A stretch of DNA of 37,906 bases from a virus. Under the pieces are notes generated by a model. It was given only the letters and a program-made list of their open reading frames with translations, was not told the DNA's origin and ran no database searches. The DNA is taken from the IMG/VR virus record IMGVR_UViG_3300044691_000157, positions 1 to 37,906 of that record. One strand, 5' to 3'. Position numbers and translations under genes: made by a program. This document shows, in pieces, positions 1,581 through 23,838 of this stretch (positions are counted from its first letter, which is position 1; each line of letters begins with the position of its first letter).

Positions 1581-2873
1581 TCAGTTATCGTTCTTCGGCT
1601 TGTTTCGGTTGTCCATCCGCATCTGCATGCTCTTGGCGTTTGCCTCGGCTTGGCTGCGGTCATAATCCGAAGTTTGCGAGAGGTCGCTGTGGACGGCCGC
1701 GTGTCGGACGAACTCCATTGGCACGCCGGCCTGGATGGCCTCCGAGATCGCCCCGCTGCGCGAATCCATGTTCCACACGTTGTCCGCAATCCCGCAGGAC
1801 CGCGCCACAAGCCGCCATTTGCGGCGGTATTCGTTGCCGGTCCAGGGCAGGCCGTTGGTGTCGCAGATCACGACGGGCCCGGACGCCGGCAGTAGGTGGC
1901 GGTTGACGATTACCCGTTTCGTGATCTCATCCACCATGATCAGCGGTTCCTCGCCGGCCAAGCATTGCAGCTCCTCGATCACCATCGGCGCCAGCTTAAG
2001 GTCAACCTGCGTCATCTTCTGCTTTTTGCTGGTGATGTGTCGCAGGATCAGGTTTTCGTCGATCTCCTGCCAGACAATGCCGCGCAGCCATTTTTGATCG
2101 TTGACGATGACAGCGGAAACGCCGGGCTCCGAAAGCGGCACGAACTCGCCGATCACGTCTTTCTGACGAAGTGTGCCCTCAAACTGGAACGCTTGGCCGA
2201 GCGCGAGGGAATGCCAGCCAAAATGCTCGCGGGCCTTGATCCTGACCTGGGTGGCCTGCTCGGCGGTAAGGCTGACGCCGCGGGCCTTGGTTCCTTGGAA
2301 GCGCATCTTGTGCATGACGCCACATAAACGTTCGCAGTCGGGATCTTCAAGTAGGGTCGCACCATAGCTGAAAAGCGCGCGAAGCTGGCCGATGAATGCC
2401 GAGGCCGTCGCCAGCCGCGTGCCGGCCATGCTCCAGTCTCTATGCCATCCCAGCAGGATGCGTGCTTTGATATCCGGCAATCGTTCGTGGCCGTGCCGAG
2501 CGCTGATCCGGCGAAGCATGCTGTCGCGGTTCACCCGAACATGGTAGCGGTTTTTTTGGTAGGGCGAGTCCGCATCAATGCGATAGCATTGGACTAGCGA
2601 TTGCAGGCTTCCAGTGAACGAGGAGGTGGGAAGTTCGACGCCGCGGCCCCACATCAACATTTCGGCTTGGTATTGCTGGCACTGTGTCGCGATGTGAGCA
2701 AACTCGATCTCGGTAGGCTCTGTGCCTGACCAGAGGGTAACTGACTTCGGCAGATAGCCGTCTGACACAAGGTCCGTTCGCGCCTGCCATGTCGCCGCCC
2801 ATCCCTTTGCTCGAGTTCTCCAAACAAGGCCGGGCGCTTCGTGAGCCATTTTCGGTGGCTGCTTTTCGTCCAT
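1581..2873 (-). CDS. int: Tyrosine recombinase (phage integrase), 430 aa
   Basis: This would catalyse site-specific integration or excision of the phage chromosome. The C-terminal half carries the catalytic landmarks: Arg236 in LRQKDVIG (box I), Lys283/284 in the beta-hairpin, Arg372 in MDSRSGA (box II), His395 in HSDLSQT and the nucleophile Tyr404 in SDYDR. The usual first residue of box II (H in HxxR) is Asp370, an accepted but less common variant. Residues about 85-200 look like a SAM-like core-binding domain. The start at 2873 shares one base with the stop of the upstream small DNA-binding gene (TAATG), so the two are probably co-translated. Family length is normal. The family call is secure; the att site is not known. 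Confidence 0.9.
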   Translation of the reverse strand: MDEKQPPKMAHEAPGLVWRTRAKGWAATWQARTDLVSDGYLPKSVTLWSGTEPTEIEFAHIATQCQQYQAEMLMWGRGVELPTSSFTGSLQSLVQCYRIDADSPYQKNRYHVRVNRDSMLRRISARHGHERLPDIKARILLGWHRDWSMAGTRLATASAFIGQLRALFSYGATLLEDPDCERLCGVMHKMRFQGTKARGVSLTAEQATQVRIKAREHFGWHSLALGQAFQFEGTLRQKDVIGEFVPLSEPGVSAVIVNDQKWLRGIVWQEIDENLILRHITSKKQKMTQVDLKLAPMVIEELQCLAGEEPLIMVDEITKRVIVNRHLLPASGPVVICDTNGLPWTGNEYRRKWRLVARSCGIADNVWNMDSRSGAISEAIQAGVPMEFVRHAAVHSDLSQTSDYDRSQAEANAKSMQMRMDNRNKPKNDN

Positions 2874-3130
2874 TATCGGGTTTCCCTTCGGGTTGCAGAA
2901 GGGTCCATTGTAAGCCCGTTGTGCTTGTCCAGCCATGATTTAACGGCCGGCCAATAGCGCCTTCCCCCGAATAAAGGTTGCTTCCGGGGGAATCCGTACT
3001 TTTTCTCCAGGCCGGGTAACAGGGACCGCATTGTCTTTTCCGGCACGCCAAGGCGCCGGATCAGTTCGGAGTCAAGCAGGTACAGCTTGTCTTTCTCGCG
3101 CTCAAGCGTTTCGGCGGCCGGTGCGGTCAT
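2873..3130 (-). CDS. Small winged-helix/excisionase-like DNA-binding protein (85 aa)
   Basis: The protein has LDSELIRRLGVPEKTMRSLLPGLEKKYGFPRKQPLFGGRRYWPAVKSWLDKHNG. This pattern (recognition helix, a basic turn containing 'GRRYW', a final helix ending in the D-K-H-N-G) is typical of MerR/AlpA-like excisionase folds. Its place directly upstream of int, sharing 1 nt with it, supports a role as recombination directionality factor. That role is inference from position and fold; a transcription factor is the alternative. It also overlaps the upstream gene by 1 nt (TGATG). Confidence 0.6.
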   Translation of the reverse strand: MTAPAAETLEREKDKLYLLDSELIRRLGVPEKTMRSLLPGLEKKYGFPRKQPLFGGRRYWPAVKSWLDKHNGLTMDPSATRRETR

Positions 3131-3351
3131 CAGCCCCGGTCCCTCGGTGTACGATCGGGCGCATGGCCGACTTCTCCCACAGAAGCGCTAGAGTCCCTGA
3201 GTATCTCGATTTTGTCGGTGCAATGGACCATATGCGTCACGCCATCATCAGTGACGACCTTCATCCAGTCGCTCTCAGGTTTCCAGCCGCGGGCTGTTCC
3301 GACCACATCCTCTTTCAACATTTTCACGCGGCGGCCATTGATTGTTGTCAC
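3130..3351 (-). CDS. Hypothetical protein (73 aa)
   Basis: Starts MTTINGRRVKMLKEDVVGTARGWKPESDWMKVVTDDG. Short alternating hydrophobic stretches with Gly and Asp turns suggest a small beta-barrel such as an SH3-like fold, but no family is recognised. It overlaps the methyltransferase stop by 4 nt and the downstream gene by 1 nt, placing it firmly in the operon. The last 20 residues are Ser/Arg/Pro-rich and probably disordered. Function unknown. Confidence 0.55.
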   Translation of the reverse strand: MTTINGRRVKMLKEDVVGTARGWKPESDWMKVVTDDGVTHMVHCTDKIEILRDSSASVGEVGHAPDRTPRDRG

Positions 3352-4049
3352 AGCATTGCCTCTTGCTTGAGGGGCTTGGGAACTTCGATGAAAAGGTCGG
3401 GGGTCTTGACGACCGCCTCTATGCGCCTGCAGGCTATGTCAAAATACTTCGGCTCAATCTCGATACCGATGAATTTTCGGCCCATTTTTAAAGCAGCAAC
3501 GCCCGTGGTGCCACTTCCCATGAAGGGGTCTAAGATAGTCTTCGCGTCGGGGACGAAAGCAATGCACCACGCAAGCAGTGCAATTGGTTTTTCGGTAGGA
3601 TGAAATCGGAGTTCGCCGGTCTGGCTCTCCCTCTGAACGCCCATCCAAAGATGGCGGAATATCTTCGCTGCGCCTGGCTTGCTAAACCAAGCTACTTCGA
3701 AATCAGAGAAATCTCCGCTACCGCCGCCAAGGGTCTTATCCCATAGCAGCCATCTGCCCCGAGGCAGGCGTGCCGCATAGTGGTCGGCGCCCCACAAAAT
3801 AGAAGGCCGGTCGAGAAATAGTGACGGGTCAAATTGTACGTCATCGCCCGCAATTCCAGCCGTTCCGCGGCTAACCGCATGTCCGCTGTTCCGCCCTTCT
3901 TCACGGTTTCCGGCGGCCCCCCGTCTGTGCCTTATGCCGTAGGGGGGATCAGATACGATCGCGTCGAACTGGCCGAGCGTGGGCAGTATTTCCCGGCAAT
4001 CGCCAAGATGCAATTCAACGCCTTCGGCTAATGTTTCTTTGCGCGTCAT
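3348..4049 (-). CDS. DNA methyltransferase, N6-adenine/N4-cytosine type (233 aa)
   Basis: It would transfer a methyl group from S-adenosylmethionine to an exocyclic amino group in DNA. The catalytic motif IV DPPY lies at residues 34-37. The AdoMet-binding motif I, DPFMGSGT, lies near the C-terminus at 174-181, preceded by HPTEKP (150-155), which is typical of the D12/N4-N6 class with motif order IV then I (beta type). The region between (about 45-145) is the likely target-recognition part. A GAGG Shine-Dalgarno precedes the ATG. No restriction enzyme gene is adjacent, so it is an orphan that may protect phage DNA from host nucleases. Target sequence cannot be read from the protein. Confidence 0.9.
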   Translation of the reverse strand: MTRKETLAEGVELHLGDCREILPTLGQFDAIVSDPPYGIRHRRGAAGNREEGRNSGHAVSRGTAGIAGDDVQFDPSLFLDRPSILWGADHYAARLPRGRWLLWDKTLGGGSGDFSDFEVAWFSKPGAAKIFRHLWMGVQRESQTGELRFHPTEKPIALLAWCIAFVPDAKTILDPFMGSGTTGVAALKMGRKFIGIEIEPKYFDIACRRIEAVVKTPDLFIEVPKPLKQEAML

Positions 4050-4055
4050 GGTGCC

Positions 4056-4133
4056 TCAGTCCCTCGCGTCTGCGCAGCCTTCTTTGCTGATCTGACGCTG
4101 GCGCTCCTTAGCGATTTCGTCGATGACGTTCAC
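4056..4133 (-). pseudogene. 25-aa remnant of a phage 'ERQRQIxxEG' protein
   Basis: A GTG start overlaps the stop of the upstream RyR-domain gene as GTGA, and the frame reads VNVIDEIAKERQRQISKEGCADARD before TGA. The segment IDEIAKERQRQISKEG matches the start of a common phage protein family that normally continues with 'W-T-x-x-H-D-D' and about 60 or more further residues. Here the frame turns into CADARD and stops, so it looks like a truncated copy. It may still be translated as a leader for the methyltransferase 7 nt downstream. The family match is from memory. Confidence 0.45.
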
Positions 4134-4336
4134 GCCGCTGTAGCCTCGATGGCCGCGTACACGGCGCGCACTGTCCCGCGATCAAGCTCCTTAGCGGGCT
4201 CCGAAAGCTGATCATAGGGGACCATCAATTCCTCGCCAGTCTCCAGCTTGCGCGTAGTGACGCCTGACTTGATCTTGGAATCCATCCAGGCTTCGTGGAC
4301 TTTGGCGCTAACGACTTCGATATTTGGCAAGTTCAT
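4130..4336 (-). CDS. RyR-domain protein (68 aa)
   Basis: The sequence VHEAWMDSKIKSGVTTRKLETGEELMVPYDQLSEPAKELDRGTVRAVYAAIEA has the hallmarks of the RyR domain first described in ryanodine receptors: an 'H-E-A-W' helix, a 'L-x-P-Y-D-x-L-x-E-x-x-K-E-x-D-R' segment and a closing helix. Stand-alone versions occur in phages and bacteria, where a ligand-sensing role has been proposed; the job in this phage is unknown. The ATG follows GGAGAAGTAAA. It is co-transcribed with methyltransferase genes on both sides. Confidence 0.7.
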   Translation of the reverse strand: MNLPNIEVVSAKVHEAWMDSKIKSGVTTRKLETGEELMVPYDQLSEPAKELDRGTVRAVYAAIEATAA

Positions 4337-4337
4337 T

Positions 4338-4520
4338 TTACTTCTCCGGTTGGTGGTGGGTGGACTGGTGATGTGGGCGCGAGACCGCCGCAGTCTCGAC
4401 GGCCTTGAGAACGGCGCGGATGATCGCCCAGCGCTCGTCCATTGTGAACATTTCGTAAAACATCGAATCTTCCTTGCATGCGGCTTCGTCGCAAACGAAA
4501 ACCAGCGCCTCTTCGGTCAT
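4338..4520 (-). CDS. Hypothetical protein (60 aa)
   Basis: Frame MTEEALVFVCDEAACKEDSMFYEMFTMDERWAIIRAVLKAV, ending in a His/Gln/Pro-rich tail. It is acidic, with two Cys and a C-terminal amphipathic helix. The start overlaps the upstream stop as ATGA and the next gene begins 2 nt downstream of its stop, which supports this frame over the longer antiparallel alternatives here. No domain recognised; function unknown. Confidence 0.5.
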   Translation of the reverse strand: MTEEALVFVCDEAACKEDSMFYEMFTMDERWAIIRAVLKAVETAAVSRPHHQSTHHQPEK

Positions 4521-4732
4521 GACTTCCTCTCGAAAGCAGGATCGTTGATGATGCGATTGAGGGCGGGGTAGCAGCGGCCAAGCTGGCGCAGCGCGCCAAG
4601 CGGCACCTTCACCATTACGGAATCGTCTGCGGTTTCGAACAGGCGCACTACGCTGTCGATCTCCAACCCGTTGAGTGCCAATTCAACGTCGTTGATGGCA
4701 TTGCGCATTTGGAGGTGCTGAGATTTACTCAT
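4517..4732 (-). CDS. Hypothetical protein (71 aa)
   Basis: Begins MSKSQHLQMRNAINDVELALNGLEIDSVVRLFETADDSVMVKVPLGALRQLG. The pattern of helix, strand and helix suggests a compact alpha/beta fold. Both ends overlap neighbours by 4 nt (with the cytosine methyltransferase upstream and the 60-aa gene downstream), which is strong support for real translation. No known family is recognised. Confidence 0.6.
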   Translation of the reverse strand: MSKSQHLQMRNAINDVELALNGLEIDSVVRLFETADDSVMVKVPLGALRQLGRCYPALNRIINDPAFERKS

Positions 4733-5514
4733 GCTCGATCCTGCGAAGAGACAGAAAGTGCGGTCATGGCTGCACCGATGAATTCGGCGGCGACTTGCGG
4801 AACGATGGAGTTTCCGATGGCGCGCAGCTTAGGAATTCTGGCGGGTATCCCATGACCCACAGGGCGTGTTCCGGGGCGGGCGCGCCGTCTGCGACCGTCA
4901 GCCCCCAGTGCATCCTCATCTGACCAGGGAGACTGTCCGGAAGCCTGCCCGCGGCCTTGCGTGCGTGCGATAGGTTCGACGCCTTCGCGCCGTCTGAGGC
5001 TTTCGGCGATGCCCACGGCCACAAACCAGAGCCGCCCGCGCTCCTGTGGCGAGCCGACGCCGCAAGCCGGAAGATTCGCGGCTGCGACGGAATATCCTGA
5101 TGCTTCCAAGTCAGAGCGAACTCCGGCGAACCATCCAGGTCCACCTTCGCGCGCAATCTGCTCTCCAAAGAGGACTGGAGGAACGCGCTCGTCGGTGAGA
5201 CGATGCAGATCAGGCCACAGGTGGCGCTCGTCGGCCTTGCCGCGGGCGTGCTTATTGGCGCCGCTGAATGGTTGGCAAGGGCAGGAGCCGGTCCAGACGG
5301 CGCGATCGTCGGGCCAGCCGGCGAGCCGGAGAGCATAGGACCATCCTCCGATGCCGGCAAAGAAGTGGCATTGGACGTAGCCGCGGAGATCGTCGGCTCG
5401 AACATCGACAATTGAACGTGTGTCAACGTCTCCGCGGGCGAGATGTCCGGCGTCGATAAGGTTGCGGAGCCATTGCGCTGCATAGGGATCGATCTCGTTA
5501 TAATAAGCGGTCAT
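4729..5514 (-). CDS. dcm-like: C5-cytosine DNA methyltransferase (261 aa)
   Basis: It would methylate cytosine at carbon 5 in a specific sequence. Visible motifs: FAGIGG (52-57, AdoMet site, motif I), PCQPFS (79-84, motif IV, nucleophile Cys80), GEQI (117-120, motif VI variant of ENV), QERGRLW (157-163, motif VIII) and RAIGNSIVPQ (231-240, motif X). The stretch between motifs VIII and X is only about 65 residues, so the target-recognition domain is short and the whole protein is at the low end for the family. It overlaps both neighbours by 4 nt. A long second frame (4764-5483) is nested in the same strand. Probably an orphan phage methylase that protects DNA against host restriction. Confidence 0.9.
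   Translation of the reverse strand: MTAYYNEIDPYAAQWLRNLIDAGHLARGDVDTRSIVDVRADDLRGYVQCHFFAGIGGWSYALRLAGWPDDRAVWTGSCPCQPFSGANKHARGKADERHLWPDLHRLTDERVPPVLFGEQIAREGGPGWFAGVRSDLEASGYSVAAANLPACGVGSPQERGRLWFVAVGIAESLRRREGVEPIARTQGRGQASGQSPWSDEDALGADGRRRRARPGTRPVGHGIPARIPKLRAIGNSIVPQVAAEFIGAAMTALSVSSQDRA
4764..5483 (-). CDS. Nested alternative-frame ORF inside the cytosine methylase (239 aa)
   Basis: The +1 frame of the same strand is open for 720 nt inside the methylase gene. Its protein contains SLESRLRAKVDLDGSPEFALTWK about halfway and LWVMGYPPEF near the end. I recall both motifs from many phage-derived database proteins annotated near or as DNA methylases. It may be a genuine overlapping gene. 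It may equally be a recurrent shadow: the methylase motifs constrain this frame, GC-rich frames stay open easily, and the database entries could be repeated mispredictions. No good Shine-Dalgarno is seen for the first ATG. Reported at low confidence. Confidence 0.25.
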   Translation of the reverse strand: MQRNGSATLSTPDISPAETLTHVQLSMFEPTISAATSNATSLPASEDGPMLSGSPAGPTIAPSGPAPALANHSAAPISTPAARPTSATCGLICIVSPTSAFLQSSLESRLRAKVDLDGSPEFALTWKHQDIPSQPRIFRLAASARHRSAGGSGLWPWASPKASDGAKASNLSHARKAAGRLPDSLPGQMRMHWGLTVADGAPAPEHALWVMGYPPEFLSCAPSETPSFRKSPPNSSVQP

Positions 5515-5723
5515 TCGGTAGGGGTGTTTCGGTGAGCCGGAGAAATGGCCGCGGCGCGCTTGTCCGCTTCGGACTTCGCCCGATCGAGGCCGGCTTGACC
5601 TTCATAGCCAATCGTTGCAACGCGTGTGGAATGGGTGACGCCAGATCGGTAGACTTCGAACCATTTACCGGCTCGACAAACCCAGAAGTCGCCGTTCTCG
5701 TACAGGATGTCGCTCGGCTTCAT
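5511..5723 (-). CDS. Hypothetical protein (70 aa)
   Basis: Begins MKPSDILYENGDFWVCRAGKWFEVYRSGVTHSTRVATIGYEG. This is beta-rich with alternating aromatics and Gly turns, followed by a helical charged segment. A small beta-sheet protein is likely, but no family is recognised. Overlaps its neighbours by 4 nt on each side, so it is part of the coupled operon. Function unknown. Confidence 0.6.
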   Translation of the reverse strand: MKPSDILYENGDFWVCRAGKWFEVYRSGVTHSTRVATIGYEGQAGLDRAKSEADKRAAAISPAHRNTPTE

Positions 5724-5995
5724 GCCTCACCCCCGCGAGGAGTGGAGGACACCGAGGATAGGCGATCCCGAATTTGTTGCGCGGCCTGCTGCGCGCCCTC
5801 CATTTTGTTGTAAGCGGCTTCTTGGGCTTGAGACTGCGCTGTATGGGAAGCCGCTCGACGCTCGGCATTTATGGCGACTTGATCGGCAATCTTAGCGCAT
5901 TCTTCGATCGCAGTACGGCGTGCCAAGGCGATGCGGTTTTGGATGTGTTCTTCTTCGAATGGTGTGAAATTACAGGTGTAAAGGCGCGTACTCAT
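5720..5995 (-). CDS. Conserved phage helical protein (91 aa)
   Basis: The start at 5995 (MSTRLYTCNFTPFEEEHIQNRIA) is chosen over an in-frame ATG 72 nt upstream because it overlaps the upstream stop as ATGA. The core ARRTAIEECAKIADQVA, a Gln/Ala-rich linker and a final AAQQIRDRL helix match a common small phage family with the pattern 'A-x-E-x-A-x-x-A-x-x-A' and a closing 'A-x-x-I-R-x-L'. That family has no known function. Likely all-helical. Confidence 0.65.
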   Translation of the reverse strand: MSTRLYTCNFTPFEEEHIQNRIALARRTAIEECAKIADQVAINAERRAASHTAQSQAQEAAYNKMEGAQQAAQQIRDRLSSVSSTPRGGEA

Positions 5996-6645
5996 TTCGC
6001 CGCACCTCCCGAGTTGGTCGATGAGATCGCGAGTGCATCTCGGGCGATGTTTCGCATTTTCACGCAAATGTACTCGGCGTTAGTCCCTTCATTTGCGATC
6101 TGCTCTAGGGCCGCGCGCAATTTCGCCAGACGCTTCTCACGGGCCGCGCCGACGCGCCGGACCGTCTCGCGGTAGGTCTCATTTGGTGGTTGGGCAAGAC
6201 CATCACGCCGTCGCGCTTGGACGCCGACCTCTTGTAGGTATTTCCATGACTGGGCGCGCAAGCGCTCGATCTCGTCAGCAGCCTCGCCCATGATCCTGGT
6301 ATCGGCACCACGGCAAAGGTCAGGCGCATCCGGGTCGTTCAATCCGCCGCAAACGGCGCAGGGCTTGTCGTTTGGGGCCGTCCAATAATGCGGAGATAGT
6401 TTGTCATATGGACAGGCCGGCAGCGGCTCGCTGGAGCGCAAGCGCTGCACGATATCCACCGTCGCCGTGTGCCGCGGTGTTTCTGTGCTGGGAGGGGCGG
6501 CGTGCGTATTCCACTCGGCGAATGTGTACGCAACCAACTTTGTGCCCTCGCATTCCGGCGTAATGCAGCGGGCCATTGCAGGAGGGCCAGTTCTGGTGCC
6601 CGGCTTCTTCTTGCAAAACGGGCAGTAGAGCAACAGTTCGCTCAT
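5992..6645 (-). CDS. Lar-like zinc protein with helical extension (217 aa)
   Basis: Residues 1-50 (LLYCPFCKKKPGTRTGPPAMARCITPECEG...AYTFAEWNT) carry a CPFC pair, a second Cys pair and a closing W-N, the layout of the Lar/restriction-alleviation zinc-ribbon family. A second Cys cluster (CPYDKL, CAVCGG, LCRG) occupies about 75-115. The remainder (GEAADEIERLRAQSW and on) is helical, like phage proteins that end in 'ADEIERLR'. In lambdoid phages Lar lowers the effect of type I restriction. Here the role is inferred from the domain and from two nearby methylases. Overlaps both neighbours by 4 nt. Confidence 0.65.
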   Translation of the reverse strand: MSELLLYCPFCKKKPGTRTGPPAMARCITPECEGTKLVAYTFAEWNTHAAPPSTETPRHTATVDIVQRLRSSEPLPACPYDKLSPHYWTAPNDKPCAVCGGLNDPDAPDLCRGADTRIMGEAADEIERLRAQSWKYLQEVGVQARRRDGLAQPPNETYRETVRRVGAAREKRLAKLRAALEQIANEGTNAEYICVKMRNIARDALAISSTNSGGAAK

Positions 6646-7007
6646 AGCGGTTTCTCAGGTTCGAGGGCGGCGCGATTAAGGGCAATCTGTGCATCCGCAA
6701 TGCGCTCGTTGTCGGTCAGGCTAGCCTTGCGCAGCGCGGCGCTGGCGTCTCTGATCGAAGCCTCGTAGACTGCGGCCCGCTTTGTGAGGGATGCAATTTC
6801 GTCGGCGGCCTCGCTAACCCAACGGCTGTTTTCGGCCCCGGTTTGTTGAGCGATGAAAGACGCGGTTCGGCGCAGGCGTTCCACGATCCTGGGCTGACAC
6901 TGAGGGGGTAGGGCGGTCGGCAATAAGTCTTCGTTACCGTCTGCGATGGCGCGCTGGCGGTCGAGTTCATCCATCGTCTTTTCGTCGCTGTGCGCGAGTT
7001 TGCTCAT
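6642..7007 (-). CDS. Hypothetical helical protein (121 aa)
   Basis: The start at 7007 (MSKLAHSDEKTMDELDRQRA) overlaps the upstream stop as ATGA, so an in-frame ATG 33 nt upstream is not used. The sequence contains RIVERLRRTASFIAQQTG and WVSEAADEIASLTKRAAVYEASIRDA. The 'AADEIASL' element is common in phage early proteins and predicts a long amphipathic helix. No enzyme motif is seen. Function unknown. Confidence 0.6.
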   Translation of the reverse strand: MSKLAHSDEKTMDELDRQRAIADGNEDLLPTALPPQCQPRIVERLRRTASFIAQQTGAENSRWVSEAADEIASLTKRAAVYEASIRDASAALRKASLTDNERIADAQIALNRAALEPEKPL

Positions 7008-7207
7008 GCCGCACGCCTTTCCTGTTTGAGGTCGTACCAAGTGAAAATCTCGCAGGCCGGGCAGTAGGCTACGTGCTCGCCGCGGCCCTTTGCGAAGCCG
7101 CTCTCATGGGTGCGCGTGAGGATGCCGGTGCATTGGAAGCAGCCCGCGTCGGTATGGCTTTCGAACTTGGGGAAGCGCTTGCTGGCGTTCTGGGCTGCGA
7201 AGGTCAT
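7004..7207 (-). CDS. Small zinc-ribbon protein (67 aa), first gene of the distal leftward unit
   Basis: Contains GCFQCTG and YCPACEIF, two CxxC pairs about 26 residues apart, which should form a zinc knuckle. The ATG follows GGAGAGAG at 6-7 nt. This is the first gene downstream of a strong leftward promoter at 7241-7268, so expression of the methylase and integrase genes that follow may be set here. Its exact role is unknown; zinc-ribbon proteins at such positions are often nucleic-acid binders. Confidence 0.65.
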   Translation of the reverse strand: MTFAAQNASKRFPKFESHTDAGCFQCTGILTRTHESGFAKGRGEHVAYCPACEIFTWYDLKQERRAA

Positions 7208-7219
7208 CTGCTCTCTCCG

Positions 7220-7248
7220 TTGACTCTGTATCTGATATGACTTATATA
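7220..7248 (+). promoter_or_regulatory. Rightward sigma70-like promoter for the RHH gene
   Basis: TTGACT (7220-7225), 17-nt spacer, TATATA (7243-7248). It points toward the 52-aa ribbon-helix-helix gene, whose ATG lies 45 nt beyond the -10. A CTGATATGAC element (7232-7241) lies in the spacer, and CTCATACGAG (7250-7259) covers the predicted transcription start. Confidence 0.6.
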
Positions 7249-7281
7249 CCTCATACGAGATACGTCAATACCTCATATGAG
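7232..7281. promoter_or_regulatory. Three related 10-bp palindromic elements (putative operators)
   Basis: CTGATATGAC (7232-7241), CTCATACGAG (7250-7259) and CTCATATGAG (7272-7281, a perfect palindrome). The last two are part of a longer direct repeat, ATACCTCATA(C/T)GAGA. Starts are 18 and 22 bp apart, close to two helical turns. Their positions inside and beside two opposed promoters suit a small repressor; the ribbon-helix-helix protein encoded next to them is the natural candidate. Confidence 0.55.
7241..7268 (-). promoter_or_regulatory. Leftward sigma70-like promoter for the 7004-7207 unit
   Basis: Reading the minus strand: TTGACG (7268-7263), 16-nt spacer, TATAAG (7246-7241). Its -10 box overlaps the -10 of the opposing promoter, so the two face each other and can hardly fire together. 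The element CTCATACGAG (7250-7259) lies inside the spacer and CTCATATGAG (7272-7281) just upstream of the -35. Confidence 0.6.
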
Positions 7282-7292
7282 AAATAATCGAC

Positions 7293-7451
7293 ATGGGACG
7301 AATAAAAAGATGGGCCGAAGATATGCAGGCCCGGTTTGCCGAGGGCACCTTTGCCCGGATCGACGCCGTTCTGACCGAGGGCGAGGAGCGCACGGCATTT
7401 GTGCGGGAAGCCGTTGAACGCGAGCTAAAGCGCCGGGAACGTAAGGGGTAA
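7293..7451 (+). CDS. Ribbon-helix-helix DNA-binding protein (52 aa)
   Basis: The frame MGRIKRWAEDMQARFAEGTFARIDAVL, then TEGEERTAFVREAVERELKRRERKG. This is a minimal ribbon-helix-helix protein: a short N-terminal beta strand (around QARFAEGTFARI), helix A (RIDAVL), the 'G-E-E-R-T-A-F-V-R-E-A-V-E-R-E-L' turn and helix B. It resembles the YlcI/YnfO-like phage family. It would bind DNA as a dimer at short palindromes. It is on the opposite strand from all surrounding genes, directly beside three palindromic elements and its own promoter. Autorepression and control of the leftward unit are inferred. Confidence 0.7.
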   Translation: MGRIKRWAEDMQARFAEGTFARIDAVLTEGEERTAFVREAVERELKRRERKG

Positions 7452-9804: not shown

Positions 9805-10047
9805 ATGAGCGATTTGGAACCAGTATCCGACCCGGCCGCGGTTGCCCTGACTGAGGCAAAACAGGCCGTAAACGGCGCCAGCGGCCTTGCCCGTGCGCTT
9901 GGGGATGAGATCAGCCCGCAGGCTATCTCCCAATGGAAGCGCGTCCCAGCGGAGCGCGTGGCCGATGTGGAGCGGGTGACTGGAGTTCCTCGGCATCGGC
10001 TCCGACCTGACATTTTTGCGCAGCCCACGGCAGAGAGCGCAGTATGA
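9805..10047 (+). CDS. Cro-like helix-turn-helix protein, YdaS family (80 aa)
   Basis: Residues 15-70 (EAKQAVNGASGLARALGDEISPQAISQWKRVPAERVADVERVTGVPRHRLRPDIF) fit the YdaS/Cro-like pattern: a first helix, 'G-L-A-R-A-L-G', the recognition helix 'A-I-S-Q-W-K-R-V-P' and the closing 'V-T-G-V-x-R-H-x-L-R-P-D'. It is divergent from the repressor gene, the classic Cro position, and would favour lytic growth. No Shine-Dalgarno precedes the ATG and the probable -10 is about 7 nt upstream, so the mRNA may be leaderless. Overlaps the next frame by 4 nt. Confidence 0.8.
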   Translation: MSDLEPVSDPAAVALTEAKQAVNGASGLARALGDEISPQAISQWKRVPAERVADVERVTGVPRHRLRPDIFAQPTAESAV

Positions 10048-14205: not shown

Positions 14206-16269
14206 TTGAAGCAGGTGGGGCTAGTCGAATCTTTTGAGCCTGAATGGGCCGCGCCAGGAGACTGGGCCGCGATGTATCGCGCTGCCGGCTTGCAGGTCGT
14301 GCCGTCCTATTTACCGTCCGAGCATCAGAACTGGAAGCGCCCGGCGCTCGCCGACTGGAAGTCGCTCCAGGAGGAGCTAGTTCCGCAAAGCACATTCGAC
14401 CGCTGGTATTCAGCCCAGGGCGAAAACAGCCGCCGGCCCAATATGGGCGTTCTATCTGGCCGTGCCTCCGGCAACGTCTTTGTCATCGACCTCGATGAAT
14501 ACAAGACGCCCGACGCGCTGGCATGGTGGACCGGGATCCTCGCCGAGCACAACAGCCGGATCGAGCCTGAGACCTGCCAGCAAGTCACAGGCGGCGGTGG
14601 TCGGCAGTTGTTTTTCCGTGCTCCCGGCGAATGGCTGGCGCCGACCAATAAAACCCCCATAGGAGTCGATATCCGCGGGCAGGGCGGCTTTGCCGTGTTG
14701 CCGCCATCTCAGCACATCTCCGGCACGCCGTACGCATGGAAGGCCGGCTGTGCGCCTTGGGAGTGCGAGATAGCGAGCGCCCCGGATTGGCTGCTCCAGG
14801 AGGTCGCAGAACTCGTTGAGCGCTACGGCGGGGATCAGAACCGGCAAGCTGCCCAAAGTGGGCCTGTGGTCTCGACAGCCAGCCCGGCTGAGGATTTCAA
14901 CGCCTTCGGCCAGCGGGTCGATGGTCGCGACCATGCCATGCGTGACCTGGTTTGGGCCGCTGTCGTGAACTGGTATCGCGAATGCCCAATCAAGCCGTCA
15001 GATGCTGAAAGCCAAACTCGGTCGCGCGAGGTCTGGGCTATCTATGAGAGAAAAACCAAAACCCGCCTGCCCGGTGACAACGTTGCCGGCTTGGAAAAAG
15101 AAGGCCGAGGCCCGTCCCTGTTTGCTGAGAAGTGGCGCCGGGCTATGGCTAAATGGTCTACCGAAATTGCCGAGGCTGCTCAGCGCCCTTTAGAGGAAAC
15201 TGAAATAGACCAAGCGGTACAGGCGCCCACCTCGGATATTTTCGATACACTTGGGCTCGCCGATATCGACGCACTGCCACCGCCAACTTGGCTGGTAGAT
15301 GGCCTGATCCCGGAAAGCGGCTTGACGTTCATCTATGGCAAGCCCGGTAAAGGTAAGTCGTTCGTAACCCTGGATCTGGCGCTGCGCGTGGCTCACGGAT
15401 TCGACTGGCACGGCAAGGAATGCCGGCAGGGTGGCGTGCTATACGTGGCCGGCGAAGGCAAGGGCGGGTATCGCAACCGCGTCCACGGCTGGCACGCACA
15501 CCATGGCCTGATCGCCGATTGCGCGCCCTTCCGTCTGCTTCCGAAGGCCGTCAATCTCATGACGCCAGAAGATGTTGCCAAGCTGGTCAGGACCGTCAAG
15601 GCGGTCGTCGGTGACGCCAAATTGGTCATTATAGATACCGTGGCCAGGGCGCTTCCTGGCGCCGAGGAGAACGCATCCAAAGAGATGGGTCTTTTTGTTC
15701 TGGCCTGCGACACGATTCGTGAAGCGTGCGGCGTGGCCGTTATCGGGGTGCACCACAGCGGCAAGGATGAGGACCGCGGTATGCGCGGATCCAGCTCGCT
15801 CGAAGGCGCTGGCGACTGCGTTTTGCACCTGAAGCGCAAGGACGATAGCAGCCTTGTCGAAGTCGCCACAGAGAAGCAAAAGGACGGCGAAGAGGCCAAA
15901 CCGCTATTTCTGAAGCTGACAAAAGTCGAATGGATGGACGGCCTAAAGCAGGCGTCCACTCTGGTTCCGGTTATCGCTGAGGATAATTCAGCGACGGTTT
16001 CAGCGGGCAGTGGGTGGCCGGATACGAGCATGTGCCGGCGCGTTGTTAACGCCATCGAAGAGGCATGGATGAGCGGCAAGCCGTGGTCTCACTCGCCCCA
16101 AAGCCCTGACCGGTACGCGCCAAAAATGATGGCGCAGCGGTTCGAAATTCCAGTCAAAATCGCTCGCGACATGCTCGAAAAATGGCTGCTCAACGACGTG
16201 CTTTCAATCGAGATTCGCGACGCTCACAACAAGACAAAAGGGCTCAAGGTTGTGGGTCTAATCTCATGA
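14206..16269 (+). CDS. Prim-pol primase / RepA-like helicase fusion (687 aa), TTG start
   Basis: It would synthesise primers and unwind DNA at the phage origin. Residues 15-200 form an archaeo-eukaryotic-type primase/polymerase (prim-pol) domain, with the D95-L-D97 pair and GVDIRGQGG (153-161). Residues 365-600 form an AAA_25/RepA-like ATPase with Walker A GKPGKGKS (378-385), Walker B LVIIDT (473-478) and the sensor-like GVHHSG. The C-terminal part (about 620-687) looks winged-helix-like. The start is TTG at 14206 after GGACGGGA; GTG at 14215 is the alternative. The gene is followed directly by iteron-like repeats. Domain calls are strong; exact origin recognition is unknown. Confidence 0.85.
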   Translation: MKQVGLVESFEPEWAAPGDWAAMYRAAGLQVVPSYLPSEHQNWKRPALADWKSLQEELVPQSTFDRWYSAQGENSRRPNMGVLSGRASGNVFVIDLDEYKTPDALAWWTGILAEHNSRIEPETCQQVTGGGGRQLFFRAPGEWLAPTNKTPIGVDIRGQGGFAVLPPSQHISGTPYAWKAGCAPWECEIASAPDWLLQEVAELVERYGGDQNRQAAQSGPVVSTASPAEDFNAFGQRVDGRDHAMRDLVWAAVVNWYRECPIKPSDAESQTRSREVWAIYERKTKTRLPGDNVAGLEKEGRGPSLFAEKWRRAMAKWSTEIAEAAQRPLEETEIDQAVQAPTSDIFDTLGLADIDALPPPTWLVDGLIPESGLTFIYGKPGKGKSFVTLDLALRVAHGFDWHGKECRQGGVLYVAGEGKGGYRNRVHGWHAHHGLIADCAPFRLLPKAVNLMTPEDVAKLVRTVKAVVGDAKLVIIDTVARALPGAEENASKEMGLFVLACDTIREACGVAVIGVHHSGKDEDRGMRGSSSLEGAGDCVLHLKRKDDSSLVEVATEKQKDGEEAKPLFLKLTKVEWMDGLKQASTLVPVIAEDNSATVSAGSGWPDTSMCRRVVNAIEEAWMSGKPWSHSPQSPDRYAPKMMAQRFEIPVKIARDMLEKWLLNDVLSIEIRDAHNKTKGLKVVGLIS

Positions 16270-23157: not shown

Positions 23158-23838
23158 ATGGGATGGCCGGTCGTCAGCGTTGCAAGTGGTGGCCTTCCGG
23201 TGACGGATGCTACTGCCAGCGGGTTCGGAACGCCGGTTGAAATCGCGAGCAATGGGTTTGGAACGCCTGTGACGTTCGGGGCTGGCGGCATACCCGTGGT
23301 CGGGGGTGTTGTGCCGTTTGTGCCCCTTGCGGGCTCGGCCGTGGATATGAATTTTGCGACCAGCCAGTATTACCCCGCGCCGTTGGCCTCGCTGATGGAT
23401 GGCACGCTGACGAATGCGATCGGGGCGCTGCTTACCGCGTTGCAAAGCCCGGCCTGCTCGGTCCTTCTCCAGCTTAAGGCCGCGCCGACAATTCCGATTA
23501 GCTGGGTAATTGCGGCTGGCGGTACTCAGAGCTTTCTCATACGAGGCGCAACAGACACTACGGCGACAACCAAGGATAATTTGGCCGCCCCAACTACGCT
23601 TACGGCCACTGCGGGCTCTGGAGCCTTTAGCACGACGGCTTCCAAGGTGTGCGTGATGTACGACGGCTCCACCGGTCGCTCACTTGTCATGAACAATGGT
23701 ACAGTAGCAACGGACGCTAATTTTACGAGCACTACGCTCACTTCCGTTTCTTTCCTCAACGTCGCTGCCGCATTCAATCGCCTGACGGTCTACACAAGCC
23801 GTCTCACCGACGTTGCAGGCAAGGCCCTGACCGTATGA
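23158..23838 (+). CDS. Putative virion surface protein, lectin-like C-terminus (226 aa)
   Basis: The start ATG at 23158 (MGWPVVSVASGGLPVTDATASGFGTPVEIA) is preferred over upstream in-frame ATGs that overlap the neighbour. The N-terminal 55 residues hold tandem 'G-x-P-V' motifs. Residues about 65-226 (NFATSQYYPAPLASLMDGTLTNAIGAL to FNRLTVYTSRLTDVAGKALTV) are beta-rich and resemble concanavalin/LamG-type sandwich proteins seen on phage virions. Its location among head genes suggests a capsid decoration or adhesion role; this is inference. Confidence 0.5.
   Translation: MGWPVVSVASGGLPVTDATASGFGTPVEIASNGFGTPVTFGAGGIPVVGGVVPFVPLAGSAVDMNFATSQYYPAPLASLMDGTLTNAIGALLTALQSPACSVLLQLKAAPTIPISWVIAAGGTQSFLIRGATDTTATTKDNLAAPTTLTATAGSGAFSTTASKVCVMYDGSTGRSLVMNNGTVATDANFTSTTLTSVSFLNVAAAFNRLTVYTSRLTDVAGKALTV

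Follow-up and report, generated by a model that had tools for sequence, protein, structure and literature searches.

A compact, probably self-regulating ribbon-helix-helix repressor cassette at a predicted bidirectional promoter in a phage genome

The window analyzed here is the whole 37,906-nucleotide stretch of IMG/VR virus record IMGVR_UViG_3300044691_000157. Within it, an 85-bp spacer separates a putative ribbon-helix-helix (RHH) repressor gene from an oppositely oriented run of closely packed open reading frames (ORFs), which includes two DNA methylase genes and reaches the integrase (Table 1). A first-pass annotation had described this opposition of the RHH gene to a leftward unit, with the locus placed upstream of the methylases and integrase; it is borne out as gene layout, that is, as a chain of ORFs, within which internal promoters may also lie. 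The first leftward gene gave no family match in profile searches. A Shine-Dalgarno-like sequence precedes it, and a clear one is absent from the RHH gene of the window. Behind the RHH gene the neighbor is convergent: leftward genes between 7481 and 9727, from a CI-like repressor through an HNH endonuclease, head for the RHH gene with no clear terminator in that interval, so that read-through would be antisense to it. At 9805-10047, opposite the CI-like S24 repressor, the gene in the Cro position has matches to both the YdaS toxin family and the P22 Cro family.

Table 1. Features of the RHH locus and the leftward unit in the window
Feature	Position	Strand	Remarks
Putative 52-aa RHH repressor gene	7293..7451	+	phrog_949; near NCBIfam YlcI/YnfO
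O3, putative 18-bp operator	7268..7285	.	core TCATATGA 7273-7280; 10-bp element CTCATATGAG, 7272-7281, perfect palindrome; just upstream of leftward -35, beyond both promoters, before RHH start codon
O2, putative 18-bp operator	7246..7263	.	core TCATACGA 7251-7258; 10-bp element CTCATACGAG, 7250-7259; in leftward spacer
O1, putative 18-bp operator	7228..7245	.	core TGATATGA 7233-7240; 10-bp element CTGATATGAC, 7232-7241; in rightward spacer, touching shared -10 boxes
Leftward promoter (predicted)	7241..7268	-	TTGACG (CGTCAA 7263-7268), 16 bp, TATAAG (CTTATA 7241-7246)
Rightward promoter (predicted), RHH gene	7220..7248	+	TTGACT 7220-7225, 17 bp, TATATA 7243-7248
Shine-Dalgarno-like GGAGAG, first leftward gene	7213..7218	-	read in sequence
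First leftward gene, 67 aa	7004..7207	-	four cysteines (CxxC pairs); not conserved across family
Leftward run of closely packed ORFs	1581..7207	-	ORF chain, gaps up to 193 bp
DNA methylase genes (two)	4729-5514, 3348-4049	-	within leftward run
Integrase	ORF 1581-2936	-	PF00589 E=3.2e-5, below family cut-off

Both promoters noted in the first pass have all their boxes in place, and their -10 boxes overlap, sharing the four bases 7243-7246. Because the -35 boxes lie outside and the -10 sequence is common, the transcripts would run apart, rightward from a predicted start at about 7255 and leftward from one at about 7234. The pair is thus a bidirectional promoter, in the sense of opposed promoters with a common -10 sequence, and not convergent, as the earlier term "face-to-face" might suggest. 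In the layout closest to that of the window among its relatives, the rightward -35 is mostly TTGCGT/TTGTGT, which leaves the rightward promoter less certain than the leftward one. The three related 10-bp elements, one of them a perfect palindrome, were confirmed base for base. When the 85-bp spacer was subjected to 3,000 dinucleotide-preserving shuffles, overlapping opposed promoters arose 49 times, the palindrome-family score was reached 0 times, and the two features occurred together in 0 of 3,000. Scanning the remaining 85-bp windows of the record revealed neither the palindrome family nor overlapping opposed promoters in any of them. A near-exact element was found at only one other place in the window, inside 23536-23545, where it stands without the rest of the site. 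Across the phage records checked, near-exact operators are confined almost entirely to the RHH locus and the reversed pattern is nearly absent; this confinement led to the rejection of a scattered, stoperator-like regulon.

The 52-aa protein belongs to phrog_949 (PHROG profile match over residues 8-51, E=1.2e-5), a family listed with function unknown. Against the curated cut-off of 30 bits for NF041551 (YlcI/YnfO) it scored 27.0, and four of eight sampled records carry a relative above that cut-off. Pfam gave no match above cut-off for the window protein, and some of its relatives match RHH_1 (1.1e-4), PSK_trans_fac, Arc, or RHH_8. A profile search of the PDB returned four weak matches, of which three are RHH proteins (MazE6, the best, CopG, and AmrZ). 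The AlphaFold2 model (pLDDT 86.9) places an extended stretch at residues 10-17 and helices at 19-26 and 33-51; a Foldseek search of the PDB with this monomer model gave no match. The RHH strand forms only in the dimer. On the basis of the family profiles, the helix positions, and the weak MazE6/CopG/AmrZ matches, the protein very likely adopts the RHH fold, although this is not proven. Among known phages, one protein relative was found, in a Caulobacter phage.

The comparison drew on 50 viral loci, one more, nine from genomes, paralogues, and the matches found in four of 297 genomes of one order (one of these already among the nine genome loci); 61 loci entered the tests. Nearly all of them carry two to four copies of the element, 18-35 bp apart, just upstream of the RHH gene, and the layout is repeated across the 61 loci with few exceptions. 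Recognizable elements are absent at a few relatives (L015/L016, L032, L034); around position 3001 of L015/L016, coding-looking sequence takes the place of operators upstream of the RHH relative. A leftward promoter scoring at least 9 of 12 is present at 42 of 61 loci (9.7 expected), and a rightward one at 32 of 61 (9.5 expected). One group of loci shares the overlapping promoters of the window. A second group has a detached leftward promoter, and its RHH gene is served by a promoter of its own with a -10 that ends 6-9 nt ahead of the start codon. A -10 box so placed was found at 16 of the 61 loci (L019, L024, L025, L035, L038, L040, and L043 included), as against 2.5 in shuffles, which suggests that the RHH mRNA of those 16 may be leaderless. 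A leaderless start was rejected for the window, which has no -10 box at that distance. At L004, L009, and L012 the central operator and promoter elements are inverted relative to others of their class, such as L003, and the flanking genes keep the same orientation. Relatives in genomes come mostly from Alphaproteobacteria (Bradyrhizobium, Bosea, Methylobacterium, Pseudaminobacter, Methylocystis, Sphingobium), which makes the earlier label "rhizobial" phage plausible.

Alignment across loci widens the 10-bp elements to about 18 bp, in the form aTAnn-[8-bp core]-nnTAt. The outer TA steps are common to the two large classes of locus and the core differs between them. The core TCATATGA accompanies QARF proteins at 20 of 23 loci and PARF/PARL proteins at 0 of 18 (p=7.5e-9), whereas GATATC accompanies PARF/PARL at 17 of 18 and QARF at 3 of 23 (p=1.3e-7); TGATATCA would be the PARF-side counterpart of the QARF-side TCATATGA. 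The same tendency shows in the smaller classes, as read by eye: LRLPL and INLTL with CATGTACAYG, ILLPL with CATATATACG, QVRL with CGRTACCG, and VVRL with CGATATCG. Over all pairs, operator similarity follows strand similarity (Mantel r=0.49, p=2e-4), and the relation persists when the rest of the protein is controlled for (partial r=0.21, p=5e-4). A similar partial correlation with the operator (0.19) is seen for the protein outside the strand, so descent contributes to the covariation. At a small number of loci, L034 and L044 among them, the unsupervised site finder picked the wrong elements; these loci stayed in the covariation test. In genomes with two or three RHH paralogues, those of different class have different operators (G028, G036, G039, G040, G017), and the two RHH proteins of one class in G012 have the same operator type at both places. 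In that genome (L014 record; 25983 and 30816; L062), what appeared as a second site cluster is a second complete cassette, and the two same-class cassettes lie on either side of the integrase. Given their shared operator class, cross-regulation between them is expected.

Candidate contacts can be placed on the protein. Arc reads DNA through Gln9, Asn11, and Arg13 (PMC12645479), and a weak profile alignment sets D10, Q12, and R14 of the window protein opposite these three residues. By this analogy, we infer that positions around 10, 12, and 14 of the RHH strand read the core. The MGR start is kept in relatives, and the N-terminal GR[K/P] arm is conserved, its GR showing little or no variation, as is true of the outer TA steps; a contact between arm and steps is a guess.

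Taken together, the core-strand covariation, the differing cores of paralogues, and the overlap of operators with promoters provide strong comparative evidence that the RHH protein would bind the elements and repress both its own and the leftward promoter. This upholds, as a probable reading, the binding, autorepression, and leftward repression proposed in the first pass; autorepression plus leftward repression is the natural reading of palindromes that overlap the two promoters. We therefore favor, with a probability of about 0.78, a compact self-regulating repressor cassette in which the RHH protein would act on three 18-bp operators at a shared bidirectional promoter. The mechanism we infer, from binding and repression to dimer mode, arm contacts, and timing, would run as follows. 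The protein, presumably as a dimer, would occupy the operators in and beside the bidirectional promoter, strand residues at about 10, 12, and 14 reading the 8-bp core in the major groove and the GR[K/P] arm perhaps touching the constant TA steps. With the operators occupied, RNA polymerase would be blocked both ways, which would shut down the repressor gene itself (negative feedback) along with the accessory genes, the methylases and, in the window, the integrase. On DNA free of bound repressor, such as that of a newly arrived phage, the two promoters would be active until repressor had accumulated.

The first-pass annotation had gone further, proposing that the protein "arbitrates" the leftward unit as a "second decision point besides CI/Cro". 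Overlapping opposed promoters do exclude each other sterically (PMC12825309), and P22 immI, with its RHH repressors, has this kind of layout. However, in the E. coli bidirectional promoters that have been tested, basal transcription is too low for polymerases to compete (PMC12825309), and a single repressor that acts on both sides would by itself provide feedback control but no switching between two states, which puts a "second decision point" beyond the evidence. No antirepressor was recognized among the leftward genes that were scanned, and no second RHH protein of this family in the window. Nor is the leftward cargo conserved: the first leftward gene differs at almost every locus, a search for a common leftward target across the loci gave none (the ORFs are small and mostly unrelated), and the integrase lies downstream of the leftward promoter in only about half of the records, being otherwise just behind the RHH gene and converging on it. 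The comparison also showed nothing that ties the cassette to the choice between lysis and lysogeny. It is thus unlikely to be a true second decision point of that choice, arbitrating between two states as in immI; the evidence is better for a repressor that guards accessory and integrase genes.

Proximity to the integrase invites another explanation, by which the elements would serve as arms of the complex for attachment or excision, with the RHH protein assisting the integrase mainly as an architectural or directionality factor. Of the 28 records with an integrase match, 26 have the integrase within about 5.6 kb of an RHH gene and on the opposite strand (it is on the same strand in G037 and G040; G041 is counted only through a weak second match). 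Yet the integrase lies anywhere between 0.3 and 5.6 kb away, on either side, whereas the elements sit inside promoters at fixed positions next to the RHH start codon, and the second G012 cassette has sites of its own. We regard this role as quite improbable.

RHH autorepressors with operators at the -10 region are common among antitoxins, the 18-bp MazE6 operator (PMC9477884) being an example. With MazE6 the best PDB profile match, the window protein could be read as the antitoxin of a toxin-antitoxin pair, its neighbor as the toxin, and the palindromes as serving autoregulation. Such a pairing is hardly credible: the protein ends with its RHH domain and has no toxin-binding tail, the divergent neighbor is a different gene at almost every locus, leaving no conserved partner toxin gene of a type II module, and in the window the gene that follows the RHH gene points towards it. 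Least probable of all is that CI, Cro, or a host factor binds the palindromes, leaving the RHH gene as a bystander, for although a CI/Cro-like pair lies about 1.5-2.6 kb from the palindromes, the core tracks the RHH strand, paralogues in one genome have different cores, and near-exact elements in the window lie, with the single exception given above, beside the RHH gene.

The self-regulating cassette, if correct, suggests a testable function for phrog_949. The collection offers dozens of putative natural repressor/operator pairs with proteins of about 50 aa and a core that varies together with a few residues of the strand, as a source for rules of RHH DNA recognition. It would also supply examples of bidirectional promoters under repression, a class of promoter whose regulation has received little study, and it gives a lead on how genes next to the integrase are restrained in alphaproteobacterial temperate phages. 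A possible but doubtful extension is that the family forms a natural set of mutually insulated mini-repressors: each phage would retain a regulatory cassette beside its integrase while operator and DNA-reading strand diversify in concert, and a prophage repressor would silence the accessory/integrase unit only of incoming phages of the same operator type. If true, these phages would have a small second immunity typed by specificity, whose protein-DNA code could be read.

Known systems resemble the cassette in part. YlcI/YnfO (NF041551) and phrog_949 share sequence-family likeness with it, but the E. coli proteins are annotated only as DUF3950 proteins, and their genes were set aside as a model for the cassette, no comparable repeated palindromes being found upstream of ylcI or ynfO. 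In the Qin and DLP12 prophages of E. coli K-12 (L124, L125), the DNA upstream of ynfO and ylcI is almost identical, and their divergent neighbors, nohA and nohD, are of the DNA-packaging type. The bidirectional promoters described by Warman, Grainger, and colleagues, in which spacings of 18, 10, or 23 bp between divergent starts are common (PMC12825309), likewise share a -10 region and have close starts (21 bp in the window, by prediction); the window differs in that its starts are predicted and in having a good -35 each way, with putative operators in both spacers. MetJ, CopG, and MazE6 are also RHH autorepressors with palindromic or short operators at their own promoters, whereas the element here is an 8-bp core palindrome with outer TA steps in two to four copies, and no cofactor or partner was seen. 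A search of open-licence literature gave no description of the cassette; the wider literature may differ. P22 immI comes closest, with small RHH repressors, opposed overlapping promoters (Pant and Pmnt, at 14793-14821 and 14826-14798 of the P22 record), an Arc operator within the promoter spacer, and a Mnt operator beside it. There, however, two repressors with one operator each control the antirepressor ant, whereas the window has a single RHH gene of the phrog_949-type family in place of a P22-type repressor pair, three copies of one element, and accessory genes and integrase as probable targets. Arc and the window protein are hardly related in sequence (hhalign probability 1.7%). The control region would work like that of immI, and while we do not class it as a member, immI appears to be its nearest known arrangement.
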